Assembly (NCBI GenBank): GCA_021846505.1
Contig: JAJZWV010000013.1
Location: forward strand, 1 to 63,103
Direction of reading: 5' to 3'
Length of the DNA: 63,103 nucleotides
DNA from: Bacillota bacterium
Lineage (GTDB): Bacteria; Bacillota; Sulfobacillia; Sulfobacillales; JAIMBI01
In this document: in pieces, positions 28,765 through 62,955 of the stretch
Position numbering within the stretch: the first letter of the stretch is position 1
Layout: each line of letters opens with the position of its first letter
Position numbers and translations under genes: made by a program
Notes under the pieces: model-generated
Databases searched by the model: none
The model's input: the letters and a program-made list of their open reading frames with translations, nothing else
Told to the model about the DNA's origin: nothing

Positions 28765-29900
28765 CCGACTGGGCGGCGGCCGGCCCCCTGGCCATAGAGG
28801 CGGTAAGCCTGCAGGAAGTATCCCTGCCCTTGGTGCGCCCCTTTGTGAGCAGCCGCGGGCGGGAGACCCAGCGCCGCTTTTGGCTGGTGGGGGTGCACGC
28901 AGGCGGGGTGACCGGCTGGGCGGAAAGCGTGGCGCAGGAGGAGCCGCTGTACAGCGAGGAGACGCATGCCACGCTGCACCAGGTGGTGGTGGCGCATCTG
29001 CTGCCGCGCCTGTTTGCCGCCCCGCTAGCCGGCCCGGGCGCGGTGGCCGAGCGATTTAGGCCCATTCGCCACCACCCCATGGCCAAGGCGGCCCTAGAAA
29101 TGGCGGTGTGGGATTGGTATGGCCGCGCCCTGGGGACTTCACTGGCCACCTGGTGGGAGGGCGTGCGCCCCGAGGTGCCAGCCGGGGTGGTGATGGGCAT
29201 AGCCCCCTCCATCCCGGAGCTGGTGGACACGGCCGGCGCGCGCGCGGCGGAGGGGTATCGGCGGCTGAAGGTCAAAATTCAGCCCGGGTGGGATCTCGAG
29301 CCCCTGCAAGCCCTGCGGCAGGCGCTGCCCACCATGGCGCTGTGGGCCGACGCCAACTCCGCCTACACCTTAGGGGACGTGGGCCACCTCGCGCAGCTGG
29401 ACCGGCTGGGCCTCGGCCTCCTGGAGCAGCCGCTCGGCCCGGACGACCTTTTGGATCATGCGGCGCTGCAGCGGCGGCTGGCCACGCCGCTCTGCCTGGA
29501 CGAGTCGATTCGCAGTGTGGCCAATGCGCGCCACGCTCTGCAGCTGGGCGCGTGCCGCGCCATCAATGTGAAGCCGGGCCGGGTGGGGGGATTTGGGCCC
29601 GCGCTGGACATTCACGCCCTGGCCTATAGGGCCGGCGTGCCGCTGTGGTGCGGCGGCATGTTGGAGTCGGCGGTGGGGCGCGCCGCCAACCTGCAGCTGG
29701 CCAGTCTGCCCGGCTTCACGCTGCCTGGCGACCTGTCCGCGTCAAGCTGCTACTTCACCCAGGACATTATCGAGCCGCCCTTTCAGCTCACCGCAGAGGG
29801 CACCCTCGCCGTCCCCGCCGCGCCAGGCATCGGCGTCACGCCAGATGAAGCCCTGCTCCAGCGGTTTAGCCAAGGCGCGGTGGAGTGGCATCGCCCCTAG
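28761..29900 (+). CDS. menC: o-Succinylbenzoate synthase / N-acylamino acid racemase (enolase superfamily)
   Basis: All active-site parts of the MenC/NAAAR group are present: KxK in 'RRLKVKIQPG', the three metal ligands in 'LWADANSAYT', 'GLLEQPLG' and 'LCLDESIRS', and the second Lys in 'AINVKPGRVGGFG'. 379 aa, normal length. In menaquinone synthesis it dehydrates SHCHC to o-succinylbenzoate; related proteins racemise N-acylamino acids. No other men gene is nearby, and it is translationally coupled to an orphan molybdenum hydroxylase, so the racemase or another role is possible. The symbol is by family only. Confidence 0.85.
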   Translation: MTDWAAAGPLAIEAVSLQEVSLPLVRPFVSSRGRETQRRFWLVGVHAGGVTGWAESVAQEEPLYSEETHATLHQVVVAHLLPRLFAAPLAGPGAVAERFRPIRHHPMAKAALEMAVWDWYGRALGTSLATWWEGVRPEVPAGVVMGIAPSIPELVDTAGARAAEGYRRLKVKIQPGWDLEPLQALRQALPTMALWADANSAYTLGDVGHLAQLDRLGLGLLEQPLGPDDLLDHAALQRRLATPLCLDESIRSVANARHALQLGACRAINVKPGRVGGFGPALDIHALAYRAGVPLWCGGMLESAVGRAANLQLASLPGFTLPGDLSASSCYFTQDIIEPPFQLTAEGTLAVPAAPGIGVTPDEALLQRFSQGAVEWHRP

Positions 29901-29904
29901 GCCG

Positions 29905-30225
29905 GCAAGCGACACGCGGCAGCCCCACTCCTCCTGGGAGGCGGGCACCGTGAGGCGCGCGAGCAGTTCCGACACTTCCTGCGGGGTGTAGAACTCGCCG
30001 CCGGATTTGCCGGCGCTGGAGGCGCTCGTAGGCGTCCCCAAAGGCGTCAATCGTATGGGCGCTAAAGTCCGTGCCGAGGTCCAAGTCGCCGATGGCCTCC
30101 AACAGCTTGACAAGCTTCTGGTTCCGATGGGCTACGGTGCGCCCGAGCTTGGGGCTATTCACGTAGAGATCCTCGAATAGGCCCTTGAGCGCATCCTCGC
30201 TCGATGTGGGCGAACACCTGCGCCC
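29905..30225 (-). pseudogene. Type I restriction-modification HsdM fragment
   Basis: Minus-strand reading gives 'SEDALKGLFEDLYVNSPKLG', 'KLVKLLEAIGDLDLGTDFSA' and 'IDAFGDAYERLQ'. After a frame change it gives 'KSGGEFYTPQEVSELLARLT', the N-terminal/middle part of HsdM adenine methyltransferases leading to the SAM site. The catalytic NPPF region is absent. The fragment is fused upstream to a broken IS256 transposase and abuts the menC stop downstream. No hsdR or hsdS is seen, so it is a dead relic. Confidence 0.8.
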
Positions 30226-30900
30226 CCCCGGCTCTTGAGTTCCGTCAGCACCGTGAGCCAGAACTTCGCCGATTCGTGGGGACGTCCTGGTAGCCCTTGA
30301 GATTAATGCCCACCACCATGTAGGCGGCTTTGTTGACCACCCGGCCGTCCTCGCCGACCTTGTAGTGTGGATGGCGTCCAGAAAGACCACGGGGTCGCAG
30401 GCGGCTAACGGCCGCTGCTGCCACTCCGTGATGCGCGGCAACCGCTGGTCCGTGATATTCGACACCGGGGCAGCCGAGACCTCCACTCCGTACAAGTGCG
30501 CTAGCTAGGCCTGGATGTCCCGGGTGCTCATCCCTCGGGCATACAGGGCGATGACTTGGTCCTCAGTGCCGACCATCGTCGTCTGGTGGGGCGGCACCAC
30601 GGCGGCCGTAAAGCTCCCCGTGCGGTCGCGGGGGATCTCCAGGGCCACCTCCCCGTATTCCGTGGTGACCTGCTTGGGATACCGGCCGTTGCGGCGGTTC
30701 GGGGTGGGCTTGGGGTCGGCCTGGTGTTTGAGGTAGCCCAGGTGGGTTTCCAGCTCGCCGTCCAGCATCGCCTGCAAGGTGTCCGCAAACAGCCCTTTCA
30801 GGGCGCGACGGACATGTTCGGGAGACCGGAAGCGTGGATCGCGACGACGTCGCGCACTTGCCCGTGCGTCCAGAGGCTCATGGGGCACCTCCTTACGGCA
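30226..30900 (-). pseudogene. IS256-family (mutator) transposase, N-terminal part
   Basis: The N-terminal half of a DDE transposase: 'VRRALKGLFADTLQAMLDGE', 'THLGYLKHQADPKPTPNRRN', 'VALEIPRDRTGSF' and 'DQVIALYARGMSTRDIQA'. An in-frame TAG follows, and the sequence resumes as 'LAHLYGVEVSAAPVSNITD' and 'DPVVFLDAIH', which includes the first catalytic Asp. It then loses frame and is cut by the HsdM fragment. The start region also has a frame problem although an AAGGAGG site is present. C-terminal catalytic residues are missing. Confidence 0.85.
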
Positions 30901-31386
30901 AACGCCAGGATATGGGGCCAGGGAGGTTACACAACCCAGGCTACATTCCAGCGACGGAAGCCTCCTCACCTGAATGTCGATGTACGGCAGGATCGCCCCA
31001 CATGACGAGCGCGCCGTCGGCCACGGTGCAGATAACGGCCAGCACACTCGCCGAACTGGCTTGGGCGCGGTACTGGTTGACTGTAGTAGCTAGCCTATTT
31101 GATCGGCAGTAGACGGCGTTCGGTGTCCGCGTATTCGTGGGGCTTCGCACGGATCCGGCAGCCCTGCGTCGAAGCGTGCCGGTGACGGGACGGCCTTAAG
31201 TGGGTCCGTGGCCGGGCGGGGTTGCCGCCCCGGGGAAACGCCACACGTGTGGCGTTTGGGTCTTGTTATTTGGGTCTTGCTAGAGGAAGGTCGGCGTCCT
31301 GGCTAGGCACGCGGGAGCACGGCTAGGCGGTCAAGGTCGGATCCGCGCTCGGACATCGGGGTGGTAGCCAGCGAGTCCACTATAAC
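30901..31386. other. Gene-poor stretch between IS256 remnant and lipoprotein
   Basis: No coding region can be supported. It contains a GC-rich inverted repeat (CCGGGCGG ... CCGCCCCGG, about 31212-31232) and, directly after, a perfect 22-bp palindrome described separately. It probably includes the transcription end of the lipoprotein gene and perhaps the outer end of the IS256 relic. Confidence 0.5.
31236..31257. repeat. Perfect 22-bp palindrome
   Basis: Eleven bases (AAACGCCACAC) are followed immediately by their exact complement. On the plus strand a T-rich tail (GGGTCTTGTTATTTGGG) follows. It could be a bidirectional terminator for the lipoprotein gene (minus, ending about 130 bp away), a protein-binding dyad, or a mobile-element end. 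Confidence 0.7.
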
Positions 31387-31800
31387 CTACCCGTCATGCG
31401 GGTTCTGGACCAAGATGTGGAAAGCCCCCAATTGGCTCTGGGTTCTCAGCGTCTGGTAATAAACTGGCCCAATGCGCCGCGGGTCCTGGAGGCGCACAGT
31501 CACGCTGATCAGGCAGTGGCTCGGGAGATGTATGGTGCGCCCATTGACGCGGATGATTACAGGCCGTCGGAGTGACCACGCTAACGCTTGACGTCCGTGT
31601 GGGGCATGGAAAAGCTGCCCCCCTTGTGAGATCAGCGATCCGGGTGGGAACTGGCGCTTCATCCACGCCGTCGCCGCAGGAAACTTAGATGAGTAGCTTG
31701 GCGGGGGGGGCACGCTCGAACAGCCCGTCACCACCACCAACAGCGCCACGGACAAGATGGTCGCGCCCATCGGCTTGCGCGTCCAGAGAACACGGCTCAT
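31387..31800 (-). CDS. Lipoprotein paired with G1 peptidase (copy 1)
   Basis: The signal peptide ends in the lipobox VVTGC, so the mature protein starts at Cys and is membrane anchored outside the cytoplasm. The mature part opens 'CSSVPPPP', then 'FPAATAWMKRQFPPG', and has a small beta-rich domain ('VNGRTIHLPSHCLISVTVRL'). I do not recognise a named family, but a paralogue at 62554-62955 shares GC-SVPPPP, the WM motif and 'GR.IH.P'. Both lie just downstream of a G1-type peptidase, here 104 bp after its stop. GAGGAGGT precedes the ATG. A role as partner or inhibitor of the peptidase is inference. Confidence 0.8.
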   Translation of the reverse strand: MSRVLWTRKPMGATILSVALLVVVTGCSSVPPPPSYSSKFPAATAWMKRQFPPGSLISQGGQLFHAPHGRQALAWSLRRPVIIRVNGRTIHLPSHCLISVTVRLQDPRRIGPVYYQTLRTQSQLGAFHILVQNPHDG

Positions 31801-31904
31801 CGGTTGACCTCCTCGCGGTGCCGCGGTTTGGACCGCAATCTAGAGCGTGGGACTACGTCGTTCATGACCGCGACCCGTGGGTGCTATTGGCTCCATCGGA
31901 CGAA

Positions 31905-32912
31905 TTACGGCGCCGGAGCGGGGTCCGAAGCCCCGTAGTTCGCCCATTGGACCGCGTAACACGTGCCGCCGCACCCGATGCCCAGCGGTCCTGCCAAGCG
32001 TTCGCCATTGGCGTACATGGTGTCGAAGTAGTGGGGTAGGCTACCGACGCCGTACCAAGCGCCGTTCGTCCGCTCGGCCTGGGCGCCAGAGAAGGTCATC
32101 GTCCCGAAATTGGCGAGCGGCGGGTCGTAGCTGCCGTTGAGGCTGGTTTGTTCGGTCCGCTCCACGATCCACTCCGCTTGATTTCCAGAATACCCGGATG
32201 CGGACTCAGAAAAACTGTCGGCCGTTCCCGTGGTCACATTTTCGATGAAGAAGTGCAAGGCACCGCCGGAATACGTGATATCGATATAAACCGTTTGCCC
32301 CGGAGACACAGGGATGTTCGTCAGTTTCTGTTGGTAGGGGTAGCGAGGGAAAATTTCCCACCATACGAAATACCGCTGCAACAGGCCGCTGGCGTAGTCT
32401 TGTTCGGTTCCAGCTTGAACGAGCTGATTCGCTGAGCTGCTGCCACTCCCCAACCCCGGCCACAGGCTCGAAAAGCTGGTCTCGGTGGAGTGACTGACAC
32501 TCGGCACCTGCCACTGTCCTTGGATGCCGTTGTAGAGATAGATGTTGTCAACGTTTCTAGCCCAATTGGGTGATTGATAGGCGGATACGGCGCTTCCGGC
32601 CACCGACGAGCGCGTCGGGGCGCGCAACGGGGACCCTGGGTGGTTCTTTAGGGTTTCGAAGCGAGGGGGTACCCAGTGCTTGAAGTGACGGACGGCGTTG
32701 GCCCACGCGGCATCGTGGGATCCCGACGGTCGTTCCGGAAAGCCATTCGCCAACAGTTGGGCATTGCTGGCCTTGAACGGATTGAACCCGGGCGACGGTC
32801 GCACGGGCGTCACGACAAACGACCCATCAAGAAACGGCCTACTGGAGGACGCTCTTGGCGACCCGCCAGCAGCAACAAGCAGCGCCGCTGTGGAGAGGGC
32901 AATCCCGGTCAA
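31905..32912 (-). CDS. G1-family (eqolisin-like) secreted peptidase (copy 1)
   Basis: G1 peptidases use a Gln-Glu dyad and act at acid pH. After a hydrophobic signal region (about 1-20) comes a pro-segment with 'PSPGFNPFKAS' and 'LLANGFPERP'. The barrel then reads 'SPNWARNVDNIYLYNG', 'GQWQVPSVS', 'NQLVQAGTEQD' (candidate catalytic Gln166), 'YFVWWEIFPRYPYQ' and 'NQAEWIVERTE' (candidate catalytic Glu in the AEWIVE motif, about 247-251). 335 aa, family length. The start is unclear: TTG 32912 is in frame, while an ATG 7 bp upstream is out of frame. A TTGACA box lies about 60 bp upstream on the same strand. Cys pair in 'GIGCGGTCYA' near the end. Confidence 0.8.
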   Translation of the reverse strand: MTGIALSTAALLVAAGGSPRASSSRPFLDGSFVVTPVRPSPGFNPFKASNAQLLANGFPERPSGSHDAAWANAVRHFKHWVPPRFETLKNHPGSPLRAPTRSSVAGSAVSAYQSPNWARNVDNIYLYNGIQGQWQVPSVSHSTETSFSSLWPGLGSGSSSANQLVQAGTEQDYASGLLQRYFVWWEIFPRYPYQQKLTNIPVSPGQTVYIDITYSGGALHFFIENVTTGTADSFSESASGYSGNQAEWIVERTEQTSLNGSYDPPLANFGTMTFSGAQAERTNGAWYGVGSLPHYFDTMYANGERLAGPLGIGCGGTCYAVQWANYGASDPAPAP

Positions 32913-33194: not shown

Positions 33195-33397
33195 ATGTAC
33201 AGAAGTGCATCGTCCACCAGATTCGGAACTCCCTCAAGTACGCGGCCCGCAAGGACTACGCGGCCCTGACGGCGGCCCTGCGGCCCATCTACCAGGCGCC
33301 CACGGAAGACGCGGGAGCGGCGGCGCTGGCGGCCTTTGCCGCCGACTGGGGGGACCGGTATCCGACGGTGGTGCGGTGGCGCCGGGCACCCCAATGA
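33195..33397 (+). pseudogene. IS256 transposase internal fragment
   Basis: The plus strand encodes 'VQKCIVHQIRNSLKYAARKD', 'LTAALRPIYQAPTEDAG' and 'FAADWGDRYPTVVRWRR', an internal piece of IS256-type transposases (normally about residues 290-355). It has no start or C-terminus. It lies opposite in strand to, and precisely abuts, the broken primase, so it marks an insertion or rearrangement junction near 33390. It is in opposite orientation to the N-terminal fragment at 30226-30900. Confidence 0.8.
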
Positions 33398-34100
33398 CGG
33401 GGACGCCCAAGCGGTCGGCCGCCACCGTGGCCTTCAGCGGCCCTTCGGTGATCCAGACGGTCGTGCGAGGGGCGGTGCGGCCTGCCACGTGGACCGGGGC
33501 CCCCGAGGAGGCGCCGCCGGGGCGCCCGGGGGTGGACCACCAGACGTACTTGCCCGGACCGGCATCGGCGCGCACATGGAGCGCCTGGACACGACCCTGG
33601 GCATCCTGCACCGGCAGCGCCAGGCCCCCGGGGCCGGCGAGCCGCCAGCGGCCGCCGGCGCGGGATCGATTCCCCGCTCCCGGAGAAGCGCGCGGTGCGC
33701 GGCCGACAGGCTCCAGGTGGTGAGCAGGCGGCGGTAGATCCGGTCGCGCGTGGTCCCATCCGCCACCGGAGACGGGGGCGGACAGCGGAGTCGGACGGGG
33801 CGCCGGGAGAGGGGCGCCGTCCAGCGTGTCGTGAATGATGGCCCGCAAAGGGCGCCCGGTCTGCCGCGCGAGAGAATCCAAGCCGTCACCGTGGGCGTTG
33901 CACGTGAAGCACTTCCACGTATCGGTGGCGGGAAACACCACGAGACTCGGGCGGCGCGCGTCTCCGTGAGAGGGACAAAGGCCCGTGTGGTACCGGCCAT
34001 GGGGCGTGAGGCGCACATGCGCCCCGACGGCGCGGAGCACCGGCCAGGTGGCCCGGGCCTGAGACGCCGGGGAGTCGGGGCGGGAGACGATGGAGGCCAT
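33390..34100 (-). pseudogene. CHC2 zinc-finger primase-like protein, frameshifted and truncated
   Basis: It begins with ATG 34100 behind GAGGTGATC. The zinc finger is intact: 'LTPHGRYHTGLCPSHGDARR' and 'WKCFTCNAHGDGLDSLARQT' (two Cys pairs plus His). Two frame changes follow; pieces read 'LSAAHRALLRERGIDPAP', 'LALPVQDAQGRVQALHVRAD' and the Toprim-like 'VWITEGPLKATVAADRLG', where the gene is cut by the IS256 fragment. Such primases are typical of plasmids, phages and integrative elements. A second N-terminal copy is at 35937-36086. Confidence 0.8.
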
Positions 34101-34512
34101 CGCGATCACCTCATGAACAAGCTGCGGCACAGCGACGATCCGTTTAGCCATGCCTGAAGGCTACTCTGGCCGGACGGCGACCGCGATCAAGCGAGGCCGT
34201 CCGGTCTCCGGGATGGACGGTCAGCCAAAGCTGTGCCGTAAGCCGGGGACGGATGGTGTCGACGGATGTTTGGTTGGAGTTTCGGCGTGCCGAGCGGCCA
34301 CGCCCCTACCGACCGCTCATCGGGGCGCGGGGGACCGCCCTACGGACCTGCTCATCCTCCCTCGTTGGCGCGAGGTGCGAGCGCTGTACGGAGACCAGAC
34401 GTGGCGCAATCTTCCGTGTCCACGGCACATCGCCCGGCAGTGCCGGGCGATGTGGGCAACCCTCGGGGGCATCTTCACGCCGAGAGGCTCGGCCTCGCTC
34501 ACCGTCTTCCCC
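34101..34512. other. Intergenic stretch with a strong hairpin
   Basis: No gene is supported. The notable element is the 29-bp inverted repeat at 34426-34454 plus a smaller GAGGC/GCCTC hairpin near 34482-34500. Both lie after the stop of the DUF4367-like gene (minus), so they likely end its transcript. Confidence 0.5.
34426..34454. terminator. Near-perfect hairpin, possible bidirectional terminator
   Basis: Two 14-bp arms (CACATCGCCCGGCA and its exact complement) are separated by a single base. In RNA this forms a very stable stem of about 12 bp. No U tract follows on either strand, so it may be a factor-dependent terminator, an mRNA 3'-protecting hairpin or an element end. It is 59 bp downstream of the DUF4367-like stop. 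Confidence 0.5.
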
Positions 34513-35049
34513 TTACGGATGGATGAGGCTCACGGCCACCCGTTCTGCGACAGGCAACGAGATATGGATGCCGTCGACGTCGTAGGAATGCCCGTCGAAT
34601 GTGAAGGCGATGTTGGTGAGGTGCGCGCCGCCGGGACTCGCGTACCACTGCGCAATTAACGCGGGGACCCCCCCGACGGTGCCAGGCGTTTGATGCGGGG
34701 CGATGTTACTTGCGGGGCTCTCGTTCTCTGTAATAATCACCGACCAGCGCGGCCCCCTGTACGAGGCAGTGAGGGATCCCGGGGGCGGCCCATACGTCAG
34801 CGAACTAGACGTCACGCCCGCCGGCATCCAGCCCGGCGCGCGGGCCCACGAGGGAAACTCGGTGCGGGCTTGAGCCCACGTGAGCGGTACAGCGGCAGGG
34901 CGGTTGCCCCCCATCGCACTGGTCTTGATGACCGAGGGCTTCGCGGCGGCCACGTGCGATGCCCCCATCCACGGGTGCCATCCGCCGACCACCACGCCGA
35001 CCGCCGCCAGCCCGAGCGCCCCCAGAGCCCAGACGTTCCACTTGACCAT
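34513..35049 (-). CDS. Membrane-anchored DUF4367-like protein
   Basis: 178 aa. One TM/signal helix (residues about 5-25, 'ALGALGLAAVGVVVGG') is followed by an extracytoplasmic domain: 'LTWAQARTEFPSWARAPGWM', 'SSSLTYGPPPGSLTASYRG', 'WSVIITENES', and a C-terminal 'GHSYDVDGIHISLPVAERV'. This strand pattern resembles DUF4367 domains found in anti-sigma-like and lipoprotein-carrier-like proteins of Gram-positives. ATG 35049 has GGAGGAG. An upstream in-frame extension lacks an RBS. It follows the secreted gene at 35084-35654 by 34 bp, so the two may be co-transcribed. Confidence 0.7.
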   Translation of the reverse strand: MVKWNVWALGALGLAAVGVVVGGWHPWMGASHVAAAKPSVIKTSAMGGNRPAAVPLTWAQARTEFPSWARAPGWMPAGVTSSSLTYGPPPGSLTASYRGPRWSVIITENESPASNIAPHQTPGTVGGVPALIAQWYASPGGAHLTNIAFTFDGHSYDVDGIHISLPVAERVAVSLIHP

Positions 35050-35083
35050 GACTGTCTCCTCCTTCTGGTGACGCTGTGACATC

Positions 35084-35654
35084 TCAGTGATAGATGACGA
35101 AGTAGTCCTGGCCAGGGTAGTTATTGAGGTCACACGTGCTGGTAGTGCTCATCCACACGGTCTGCTGTGCGACGACGTCGTCAGACCCAAAGGGCAAACT
35201 CAAGTCGGGGTAGATGGTCGCGTTGGCATAGCGAACACCATCGCACTGAAAGCTGTAATAGGTCTTCTCTCCCGTTGAGGTAGCGGAATTATAAATGTAG
35301 AGCAAGCCATACCACCCGTATGCCCCGCTGGACACGCCTCCCGGACTCAAGGTGACCCGCGTGTACTTGGCGGTGCTGTAGTTGTCCGCCACATTCACGT
35401 CCAGGGTCCATGAGGAATAGTACGAGCCAATCGCCAGGTCGTTGCCTGGACACCCGCTCAGCACGTTAGACCCTGTGCCGACCAGAAAACTTTGCGTGGA
35501 GTTGCTGTTGCAGGAAGGGGGGGGTAATACCTAACGGAGCGGTGTTGGTGATCGTTCCGACGGACGGCCTACTCTGAGCCCAGACCGGGCTCGACAGGGT
35601 GAGCAACGCGGCTGCTGCTATAACTCCCCCCAACCACTGGGTCCGTCGAATCAT
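35084..35654 (-). pseudogene. Secreted Cys-containing protein, split by a frameshift at a C7 tract
   Basis: ATG 35654 has AAGGAGGTG nine bases upstream and opens a clean Sec signal peptide ('LGGVIAAAALLTLSSPVWAQ'). After 'TITNTAPLGIT' the frame meets seven consecutive C (plus-strand G 35518-35524) and soon stops. The adjacent frame continues without interruption as 'PSCNSNSTQSFLVGTGSN', 'SYYSSWTLDVNVADNYSTA', 'SFQCDGVRYANATIYPDL' and 'TSTCDLNNYPGQDYFVIYH'. Four Cys suggest two disulphides. A one-base change in the tract restores a protein of about 189 aa. No family recognised. It may be a true pseudogene, a phase-variable gene, or a sequencing error. Confidence 0.7.
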
Positions 35655-35890
35655 GTCCTGTACACCTCCTTGAGAAAATCAGATTGGGCACGAAGCGGGT
35701 GCCTGGTTACCGGAGACCCCATTTGCCCCCAGGACGCTCCCTCCGCTCCGGCTAGGCCCGACGCACCCACATGTGGCATTCGGGTCCCCGCCGGTTCTGT
35801 AGCAGGCTGTCTCGACAGACAAACCCTGGTAGCCGCTACCATTAACTACCCAAGGCTTATCACCGCTGAGACGCCGAGTCAATAGGTGCA

Positions 35891-35904
35891 CGAAAATATT
35901 TTCG
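35891..35904. repeat. A/T-rich perfect palindrome (CGAAAATATTTTCG)
   Basis: A 14-bp self-complementary site in a GC-rich background, about 35 bp from the breakpoint of the second primase copy. It could be a regulator site or a recombination-associated motif; it is close to chance length, but composition makes it stand out. Confidence 0.45.
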
Positions 35905-35936
35905 GCTTCCGCCCGTCTCCCTCGGACATCACGGGC

Positions 35937-36086
35937 GCCCACAAGACTCGGGCGGTGTGCATCCCCGTGAAAGGGACAGAGGCCCGTGTGGTACCGACCA
36001 TGCGGCGTGAGGCGCACCGACGCCCCCACGGCCTTCAGAACGGGCCAGGCGGCGCGGGCGCGGGAGACCGGCGATGCGGTTGCCAT
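35937..36086 (-). pseudogene. Second CHC2 primase N-terminal fragment
   Basis: ATG 36086 behind GAGGTGAG opens 'RAAWPVLKAVGASVRLTPHG', 'YHTGLCPFHGDAHRPSLV', closely similar to the N-terminus of the primase at 33390-34100. Similarity stops abruptly at PSLV, before the second Cys pair. The same frame runs on to about 35679 with no family resemblance. The two copies in the same orientation indicate duplication of an element or two related insertions. Confidence 0.75.
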
Positions 36087-36194
36087 GATGCTCACCTCGT
36101 CAGCCAAAATGCCGGCGGAGACATCCCCACCTTATGGCCTTCACGCGCCGGGCGGTCGCCGCGGTTAAGCGGCGCCGTCCGGCTCTTCTGCATG

Positions 36195-36572
36195 TCACGG
36201 ACCGTGTTCAGCGCGTCGGAGTAACCCCGGAGTTGCACTGGCGCTCTCAGCAATGAAGCTGTGGTCGGAGGCCGAAGCAATGACACCGGCCATCGAATGA
36301 GCCGAACCCATAACCAATGAGGCGGTAGGCTTGCTTAGACCGGCGATGGCTTCAGCCAGCGCCAGCCCCGCCTCGACGTCTCCACCGAGAGAGTGAATCA
36401 ACACCAGGAGAGCACCTGCCGACTCGTCCGCTTCAAGCGCTGCCAGCCCGGGCGGCAAAAGGTCGGGTTTCACAGCGATGAGATGTGGCTGGGGCTCGTA
36501 GCCTTCCACTACGCCGATGATGGGCAGGAACTGAAGCCAGCCGGTGGCGGCTGGCGGCCGAGCAATTGCCAT
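36195..36572 (-). pseudogene. TepA/ClpP-like serine protease, C-terminally truncated
   Basis: It resembles the ClpP-fold TepA (YmfB) proteases: 'QFLPIIGVVEG', 'LLVLIHSLGGDVEAGLALAE' and 'SLVMGSAHSMAGVIASASDH', where the Ser of AHSMAG is the expected nucleophile. The family continues 'SFIAPxATMTIHPVR...' with the catalytic His and Asp. Here the match ends after 'SFIAESASATPG' and a stop follows, so the triad is incomplete. ATG 36572 has a GGAG site and a plausible promoter upstream. A truncated product of 125 aa may still be made. Confidence 0.65.
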
Positions 36573-36637
36573 TTGATCAGCTCCATCAGTCAGTGTAGCG
36601 AGGGGTCGGAGAGACACGAACTGTATGAGTGTGTATA

Positions 36638-61480: not shown

Positions 61481-62553
61481 TGTGTCGGTTTGGAACAGAA
61501 AGCTTAGGACACGTGGGGGGTGCTGGCAATCGTGCAAGCGGGGACTGGCCTGGGTGCGGCGCCGCCGGCCGGACCCCAAGCGCCGTTACGGGTCGGCCCC
61601 TTCACGGTCACGCCGGCACCTCCTCACCCAGGCTTCAACCCGCTGACGGCGAGCCCGAGCGCGCTCGCGGCCAATGGATTTCCCGCACGACCGCCAGGCA
61701 CGCCGCGGTGGTGGGTAAAGCTTGTCCCCACGGCCCGCTACGTCTATCCTAACTCGGGCGCGATGAGCAACACGGTGACCACGACACCGGCGCCGCTCGG
61801 ACGGCGCGCCACATCTCGAGGGGTGGCGACCTCCCCAACAGGCAGTTGATTTATGTATGCCGAACCATCGCTAAATTGGACATACAACACGGATAACTGC
61901 TGCCGATACTACGCAATTGACGCCACATGGGCGGTGCCGACCGCAGTGGCGAGTATGATTGCCCAGAACACGTACTCCGCCGCCTGGCCGGGTTTGGGCC
62001 TGGGAAACAGTTCGTCCCACCAGCTGTTCCAGGCGGGACCTGAATCCAACGTCAGCTGGGTGCTGGATTGAAATGGGTGGCAACACTACACCAGCACACT
62101 TGCCTGGTGGGAGGTGTACCCGCAGTACCCGTACTCGGAAGAGCTGTACTCGCTGTCAGCCCGAATGATGTCCTGCACGCCTCGGTGCAGTACATTTTTT
62201 CAAAGGGACAGGTGCTATTCACCGTCTACAACGAGTCGTCCGGCCAGTACTCATCGCTGTACGTGTCGGCGGGCGGCTTTGGCGGCTACCACGCCGAGTG
62301 GGTGGCGGAGCGCCCAACCCAAGGCGGTGTTATGTCGTACTGGGCCCACTTTGGATCGGTGACGTTCACCGGTGCAGAGGCAGAGTCCGGGGGCGTCTGG
62401 CGGGGCGTGGGCCAACAGGCTCACCGCTACGGCAGCATGTACGATAAGAACACGGACGACAGTGAGGTGACGGATGTGTCGCCGGGGGGCATCAATGCGG
62501 CGGGAAACAGCTTTGCAGTGGCATGCCACAGTCCCGGCGGCAGGGACCCCTAG
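61481..62553 (+). pseudogene. G1-family peptidase (copy 2), broken by frameshifts and stops
   Basis: AGGAGGTGCGTT precedes GTG 61481. After one frame change the pro-segment reads 'FTVTPAPPHPGFNPLTAS' and 'ALAANGFPARPPG', aligning with copy 1. An in-frame TGA (61847) is followed in frame by 'SLNWTYNTDNCCRYYAIDAT', 'WAVPT', 'SSSHQLFQAGPESN' (candidate Gln), a second in-frame TGA (62069), then 'YTSTLAWWEVYPQYPYSEEL'. A further shift leads to 'VLHASVQYIFSKGQVLFTV' and 'GYHAEWVAERPTQGG' (candidate Glu). Gene order and both dyad residues are kept, so decay seems recent. Its stop directly abuts the lipoprotein ATG. Confidence 0.78.
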
Positions 62554-62955
62554 ATGAAGACGTACCGCCGCGTCATCTTCAGGCTCCTTGCCCTTATGCT
62601 GGGCGCATGGGTAGCGGGGTGCGGATCCGTGCCGCCTCCACCGCTGCCGCCCTATCCTGGCGCCGCCGACTGGATGGCTGTGCACTGGCCGAAGGCGTGG
62701 CGCGCAGAAGGCTATGCGGCGGAGCGCGGCTTGTTCTACCGCCACTTACCGGGCGTGGCCGCGCCTGCGGGCCGCCGGTTTATGACCTGGAAGTTCGGCG
62801 AGCCCCTGACTACCACGTGGCATGGCCGCGTGATTCACGTGCCCAGGTTTGCCGTGATGGCCACAGAGGTGAGCCGGCAGCATCGGCAGAGGGTGTACGG
62901 CGTTTTTCTGGAGGAGGGATCGCCCCCAAAGTGGGTGCCCTGGCCAAACTGGTAG
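62554..62955 (+). CDS. Lipoprotein paired with G1 peptidase (copy 2)
   Basis: 133 aa. Lipobox WVAGC after a hydrophobic signal, then CGSVPPPP, 'YPGAADWMAVHWPKAWRAE', 'GLFYRHLPG', 'WHGRVIHVPRFAVMATEV' and a C-terminal 'VYGVFLEEGSPPKWVPWPNW'. It shares the leader motif, WM motif and GRxIHxP with the lipoprotein at 31387-31800, so they are paralogues. It is intact although the peptidase directly upstream is broken. No independent strong RBS is seen, as the start follows the peptidase stop immediately. Confidence 0.78.
   Translation: MKTYRRVIFRLLALMLGAWVAGCGSVPPPPLPPYPGAADWMAVHWPKAWRAEGYAAERGLFYRHLPGVAAPAGRRFMTWKFGEPLTTTWHGRVIHVPRFAVMATEVSRQHRQRVYGVFLEEGSPPKWVPWPNW

Follow-up and report, generated by a model that had tools for sequence, protein, structure and literature searches.

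A previously undescribed lipoprotein family as the probable partner of acid G1 peptidases

We have found a previously undescribed family of small lipoproteins whose genes mostly lie beside those of G1 (glutamic) peptidases. A functional partnership between the two proteins is well supported by linkage, and because the lipoprotein gene sits beside the peptidase gene in different genomes and in different gene orders, the lipoprotein is probably a dedicated partner (brake, folding helper or anchor) of the acid peptidase. We lean to the reading that the two genes form an exported unit, in which a secreted acid G1 peptidase would have a lipoprotein of the new family as its controlling partner.

The G1 family, or eqolisins, includes scytalidoglutamic peptidase and aspergillopepsin II, and we know of no protein inhibitor, dedicated chaperone or natural protein partner described for it. 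Bacterial pepG1 from Alicyclobacillus sp. DSM 15716 also belongs to this family, which has a Gln/Glu dyad (PMC3009609). The word 'operon' does not occur in the text of that paper, and full-text literature searches found no paper on a pairing of G1 peptidase and lipoprotein. The peptidases described here resemble the known family in having the same A4/G1 domain at scores over the cut-off, the Gln/Glu dyad, export as suggested by the clear signals of homologues, and relatives from acid-loving bacteria; they differ in that two of their clades have a lipoprotein gene in linkage.

The window (the whole stretch of DNA that was analysed, 63,103 nucleotides) carries the pair twice. Copy 1 (31387-32912) has the following features.

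31905-32912, minus strand: G1 (glutamic, eqolisin) peptidase; ORF of 335 aa counted from TTG; PF01828, 97.2 bits
32415-32417, minus strand: catalytic Gln codon of the copy 1 peptidase (Q166, in LVQAG); invariant in alignments
32160-32162, minus strand: catalytic Glu codon of the copy 1 peptidase (E251, last Glu of AEWIVE); from alignment
31801-31904, minus strand: intergenic region of 104 nt; no unusual structure (z 0.28)
31387-31800, minus strand: putative partner lipoprotein L1, 137 aa; ORF with lipobox VVTGC, mature from Cys27; assigned by family membership
31236-31257, no strand: perfect palindrome AAACGCCACACGTGTGGCGTTT downstream of L1, a possible terminator; from a palindrome scan

The earlier note had read the first gene as a G1 peptidase with both dyad residues, and this was borne out. 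The Peptidase_A4 match far exceeds the Pfam cut-off of 22.3 bits and covers the C-terminal half of the protein, in which an N-terminal pro-like region ending GFPERP is followed by a catalytic domain at about residues 115-300. Q166 and E251 both occupy conserved positions; E251 was aligned with the NAEWIVE glutamate of aspergillopepsin II (1y43) and also with the clade A and clade B peptidases described below. The description of this copy as intact holds for the full ORF and both dyad residues, but the start codon is doubtful. The TTG at 32912 yields a signal peptide lacking a basic n-region, and no in-frame ATG, GTG or TTG lies between it and the upstream stop; a hydrophobic stretch and the pro-like region are present, and the signals of homologues are clear. 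The small lipoprotein said to follow on the same strand is also there: L1 has a good ribosome site (Shine-Dalgarno) GAGGAGGT and a lipobox VTGC continuing into SSVPPPP. RNA structure in the 104-nt intergenic region is not beyond chance, and the number of palindromes in the scan that includes AAACGCCACACGTGTGGCGTTT is not above that in shuffles.

The same pair in the same order had been reported at 61481-62955. The order and a homologous lipoprotein are indeed found there (61482-62955), but the peptidase is broken, as its features show.

61482-62553, plus strand: second G1 peptidase gene, a pseudogene by comparison with intact homologues
61847-61849, plus strand: in-frame TGA in the copy 2 peptidase (TGC in homologues)
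62069-62071, plus strand: in-frame TGA in the copy 2 peptidase (CGG or CGC in homologues)
62155-62156, plus strand: site of a 4-nt deletion (frameshift) in the copy 2 peptidase
62554-62955, plus strand: putative partner lipoprotein L2, 133 aa, intact; its ATG abuts the peptidase stop (TAGATG)

These lesions were called against intact homologues in two relatives, and the start region is shifted as well. Recoding of TGA was set aside, since the 4-nt deletion and the shifted start accompany both TGA codons. Copy 2 was ruled out as a second intact pair, the lipoprotein alone being intact. Decay of the peptidase is recent, as its differences from one relative continue to fall mainly on third codon positions (64/55/157 by position). 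L2 (dN/dS 0.17) is 70% identical to the lipoproteins of intact pairs in two same-genus genomes, in which the lipoprotein start abuts the peptidase stop. L1 and L2 are homologous (30% identity, E 3e-9), and both have a basic n-region, a hydrophobic core and a lipobox ending in Cys.

A functional partner had been proposed from the repetition of the pair. Because the copy 2 peptidase is dead, the repeat within the window is the weakest evidence for this, but the proposal gains from linkage to G1 genes that extends far beyond the window. In single-sequence searches the lipoprotein looked like a genus-only family; this was overturned by reading downstream of related peptidases in other genera, where a divergent lipoprotein occupies the same place (G023, G035), and by rebuilding the profile. 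With a profile of the mature lipoprotein, some 25 homologues are found, nearly all of them within one order of bacteria from acid environments, which its general features suggest, as a lead, to be that of Sulfobacillus. Genome-wide profile searches place the family in 17 of the order's 42 genomes. With the mature-part profile, a search of 398 genomes of the phylum gave no member beyond the order, and elsewhere in the class two weak matches occurred, in one genome only. These lie in tandem (L272:3974-5030, plus strand) in a genome of another family of the class, with no G1 gene near. Two matches from Rubrivivax/Burkholderiales (L073, L074) were discarded as antisense in another gene. A mature-only profile (A8, 23 sequences) gave the same picture as the wider one. 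Leave-one-group-out searches with mature sequences alone recovered every group at E 3e-5 to 3e-17 (best shuffled sequences, E 6e-3 to 4e-2), so the signal peptide is not what drives the family. The lipobox Cys is kept in 22 of the 23 aligned members and is lost in G019, a solo lipoprotein. Sequence searches of Pfam, NCBIfam and the PDB with the lipoprotein returned nothing credible.

As the earlier note had proposed to check, lipoprotein homologues lie mostly beside G1 genes, and the outcome that it named as refuting, homologues mostly lacking a peptidase neighbour, did not arise. A G1 gene or remnant is found within 2.9 kb of 18 of the 24 assessable family members (one additional member is cut by a contig end), where by chance a mean of 0.5%, and no more than 0.8%, would lie that close to a G1 match. 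Since it was adjacency that drew attention to G023 and G035, and the first copies were part of the original observation, a fairer count is that of the members first found by genome-wide profile search, in which adjacency played no part: 11 of these 17 are linked. Collapsed to sequence groups, the figure is 7 of 10 (p ~3e-13). When all ORFs neighbouring the lipoprotein loci were compared all against all, G1 was, besides the lipoprotein itself, the sole family that recurred around three or more of the groups (6 groups, 15 loci). In a quick tree built from 93 G1 domains of the order and class, peptidases with a linked lipoprotein account for exactly two clades, A and B, neither of which contains an unlinked member. 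Against a partner role stand the majority of the order's G1 peptidases, which have no such lipoprotein neighbour, and six lipoproteins without detectable G1 nearby (G038, G011:C16, G019, G024:3077798, G012:2037432 and, at a contig edge, G037).

The linked genes occur in three arrangements. In arrangement A, the lipoprotein lies downstream of a clade A peptidase, whether whole or a remnant: both window copies, G001, G002 (twice), G023, G035, G009, G011:C77 and G024:1641656. In one same-genus relative (L055:1-4311) a block of three genes is duplicated in tandem: the G1 peptidase, the lipoprotein and, on the opposite strand, a lipoate-ligase-like gene. In arrangement B, found in seven genomes of one genus (L226:4382-7455 and its equivalents in L224, L225, L227, L230, L232 and L233), the lipoprotein heads a conserved operon that continues with a TPR protein and, in most, a PF00756 esterase, and ends in a clade B G1 peptidase. 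A VTT/DedA-type gene lies just upstream of this operon in L224, with a similar ORF in L227. In arrangement C (G033), the lipoprotein is divergent from a clade A peptidase. A different configuration was seen at L066:9534-16446 (plus strand), where a 1422-aa ORF with a G1 domain is followed, 34 nt on, by an 869-aa lipoprotein with Big_1 (bacterial Ig-like) domains.

The intervening genes of arrangement B count against a partner role, and the two genes might instead be inherited together without any interaction of their products, both belonging to an acid- or starvation-responsive unit and sharing regulation alone. The unrelated TPR and esterase genes of that operon fit such an explanation, as do the unlinked lipoproteins. 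It accounts poorly for a linkage that recurs in three different arrangements, one of them divergent, that is confined to exactly two G1 clades, and that no other gene shares in more than two group neighbourhoods; we consider it improbable.

In the reading we lean to, the peptidase would be exported as a secreted acid (G1, glutamic) enzyme and the lipoprotein would be lipidated and anchored at the external side of the cytoplasmic membrane, as their signals suggest. The emerging peptidase would meet the lipoprotein at the membrane and may be bound and controlled by it at the cell surface, the lipoprotein serving as membrane-bound inhibitor or folding helper until the peptidase is released. Such control would spare the cell's own exported proteins from an enzyme active at the acidic exterior. 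What the data show of such a unit is the specific, repeated linkage of the genes across genera, the conserved dyad, the lipobox, the homologous mature domain and, in one clade, the co-translation-like spacing. As to what the lipoprotein would do, an inhibitor or immunity function is possible though open to doubt, a foldase or pro-domain-like helper is a doubtful candidate, an anchor or receptor an unlikely one, and an activity other than these a quite unlikely one.

Intact lipoproteins persist beside dead peptidases at several loci (window copy 2, G035, G009, G011:C77 and G024:1641656), which argues against a strictly peptidase-serving protein, since such a protein need not persist. Open lipoprotein genes beside dead or absent peptidases suit an immunity or trans-acting role. 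In its strict form, this would make the lipoprotein an inhibitor that protects its producer, with solo copies protecting peptidase-less cells from the enzyme of their siblings. We are sceptical of the strict form, even with intact lipoproteins beside dead peptidases at at least five loci and solo lipoproteins without any peptidase in its favour: solo G019 is without the lipobox Cys and constraint there is modest, and survival of the lipoprotein alone is weak evidence because disabling mutations strike a short gene less often than one of three times its length.

Selection on the lipoprotein points the other way. Between the lipoproteins of most pairs that are intact, or were so until recently, dN/dS is about 0.09-0.17, indicating purifying selection. 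Where the peptidase is broken or gone it is 0.25-0.57, against 0.09 in comparably diverged intact pairs, a comparison made up of very few pairs from different subfamilies. The weaker constraint, together with the loss of the lipobox Cys in G019, suits dependence on the peptidase, within these small samples. It also fits the proposal, made by analogy, that the lipoprotein is not an inhibitor but a membrane-bound foldase or in-trans pro-domain that would fold the peptidase after export, a proposal to which the downstream, abutting gene order of clade A lends itself. This proposal is somewhat unlikely: clade A peptidases retain a pro-like region of their own, solo lipoproteins persist as full-length ORFs, the clade B lipoprotein comes first in its operon with other genes between, and the constraint comparison is as small as stated. 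Given these two opposed observations, persistence beside dead peptidases and weaker constraint there, we keep to a controlling partner, inhibitor or foldase, and make no claim as to which.

The lipoprotein might, alternatively, be a surface anchor or receptor that keeps at the cell a peptidase which would otherwise be free. In favour of such a role, clade A peptidases lack an anchor and their signal looks cleavable, and the partner is a lipoprotein. Against it, clade B peptidases start with a hydrophobic stretch in which no cleavage site is clear; they may themselves be retained in the membrane, and they too are lipoprotein-linked. We give a tethering role little likelihood.

Two known systems bear comparison with a controlling partner. 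Lif, a membrane-anchored lipase foldase, is encoded directly downstream of Pseudomonas and Burkholderia lipases in lipA-lipB operons. As with Lif, the clade A lipoprotein gene lies directly downstream of that of a secreted hydrolase, and its product is predicted to be exported and membrane-anchored. Unlike the Lif-type order, arrangement B has the lipoprotein upstream, and whereas Lif has a transmembrane helix, the lipoprotein has a lipobox, about 105 residues and a modelled fold of one helix and seven strands; the 23 family members have no Pfam family in common with Lif. Staphostatins (sspB-sspC) are cytosolic cysteine-peptidase inhibitors. They too are small proteins encoded beside a secreted peptidase, but the lipoprotein has a lipobox, and searches of Pfam and of known structures gave no credible match for it.

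The model of mature L1, made with AlphaFold2 from five sequences, had a pLDDT of 74.6 and a pTM of 0.65. Structure searches with it gave no confident match (Foldseek, best E 0.37; VIA, best Z 4.0), and Tim21, VirB8-like and NTF2-like folds were rejected, their Z of 3.5-4 being too low. A read-through fusion of a relative's two abutting genes, peptidase and lipoprotein, gave no folded model (pLDDT 34.5), and so no interface model was obtained. Alignments for structure prediction were shallow, at 5-6 rows.

The pair had also been thought to travel, and near copy 1 the window holds remnants of mobile DNA.

29866-31047, minus strand: Mutator/IS256-type transposase, split into two ORFs (remnant); PF00872
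33234-34151, minus strand: ORF with a DnaG-type CHC2 zinc finger (primase-like), upstream of copy 1; PF01807

The region 33234-36617 (minus strand), next to copy 1, contains CHC2 zinc-finger ORFs and a Clp-protease-like ORF and is a probable phage or plasmid remnant. Besides these IS256-type and primase-like flanks, an intact IS256-type transposase gene lies inside one relative's pair (G009, L222:1145-5080), between a broken clade A peptidase and an intact lipoprotein, and a resolvase or transposase is near some other lipoprotein copies. Searches of phage, plasmid and viral-contig collections, however, gave no homologue of the proteins used as queries, and travel of the pair is a possibility that the flanking remnants weakly support.

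The genes of a second small-protein family (A7, 'family 2') come straight after a G1 peptidase of a third clade, or after what is left of one, at 7 of 13 loci (L119:1286-2900, minus strand; L120:1183-2876, minus strand; L234, L235, L239, L241 and L243). Like the lipoprotein studied here, it is a small protein of the same order encoded directly downstream of a G1 clade. The two are not homologous (hhalign probability 1%). A lipobox is present in the best-preserved A7 copy, that of L119, and is lost or missing in most others. If the A7 pairing holds, these G1 peptidases acquired a small exported partner on more than one occasion. A further reading, possible but less likely than not, takes the lipoprotein as the first of a kind of controller for glutamic peptidases that is gene-encoded and membrane-anchored (inhibitor/immunity or foldase); two G1 clades of one bacterial order would have adopted it, and an unrelated family would serve the third in the same way.

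The lipoprotein family illustrates how a divergent family beyond the reach of single-sequence searches can be recovered through gene neighbourhood. Little is understood of how cells at very low pH manage the acid-activated peptidases that they secrete, and G1 enzymes attract biotechnological interest for proteolysis in acid. With a partner that is small, stable, acid-proof and easily cloned alongside its enzyme, the control of a glutamic peptidase would become testable.
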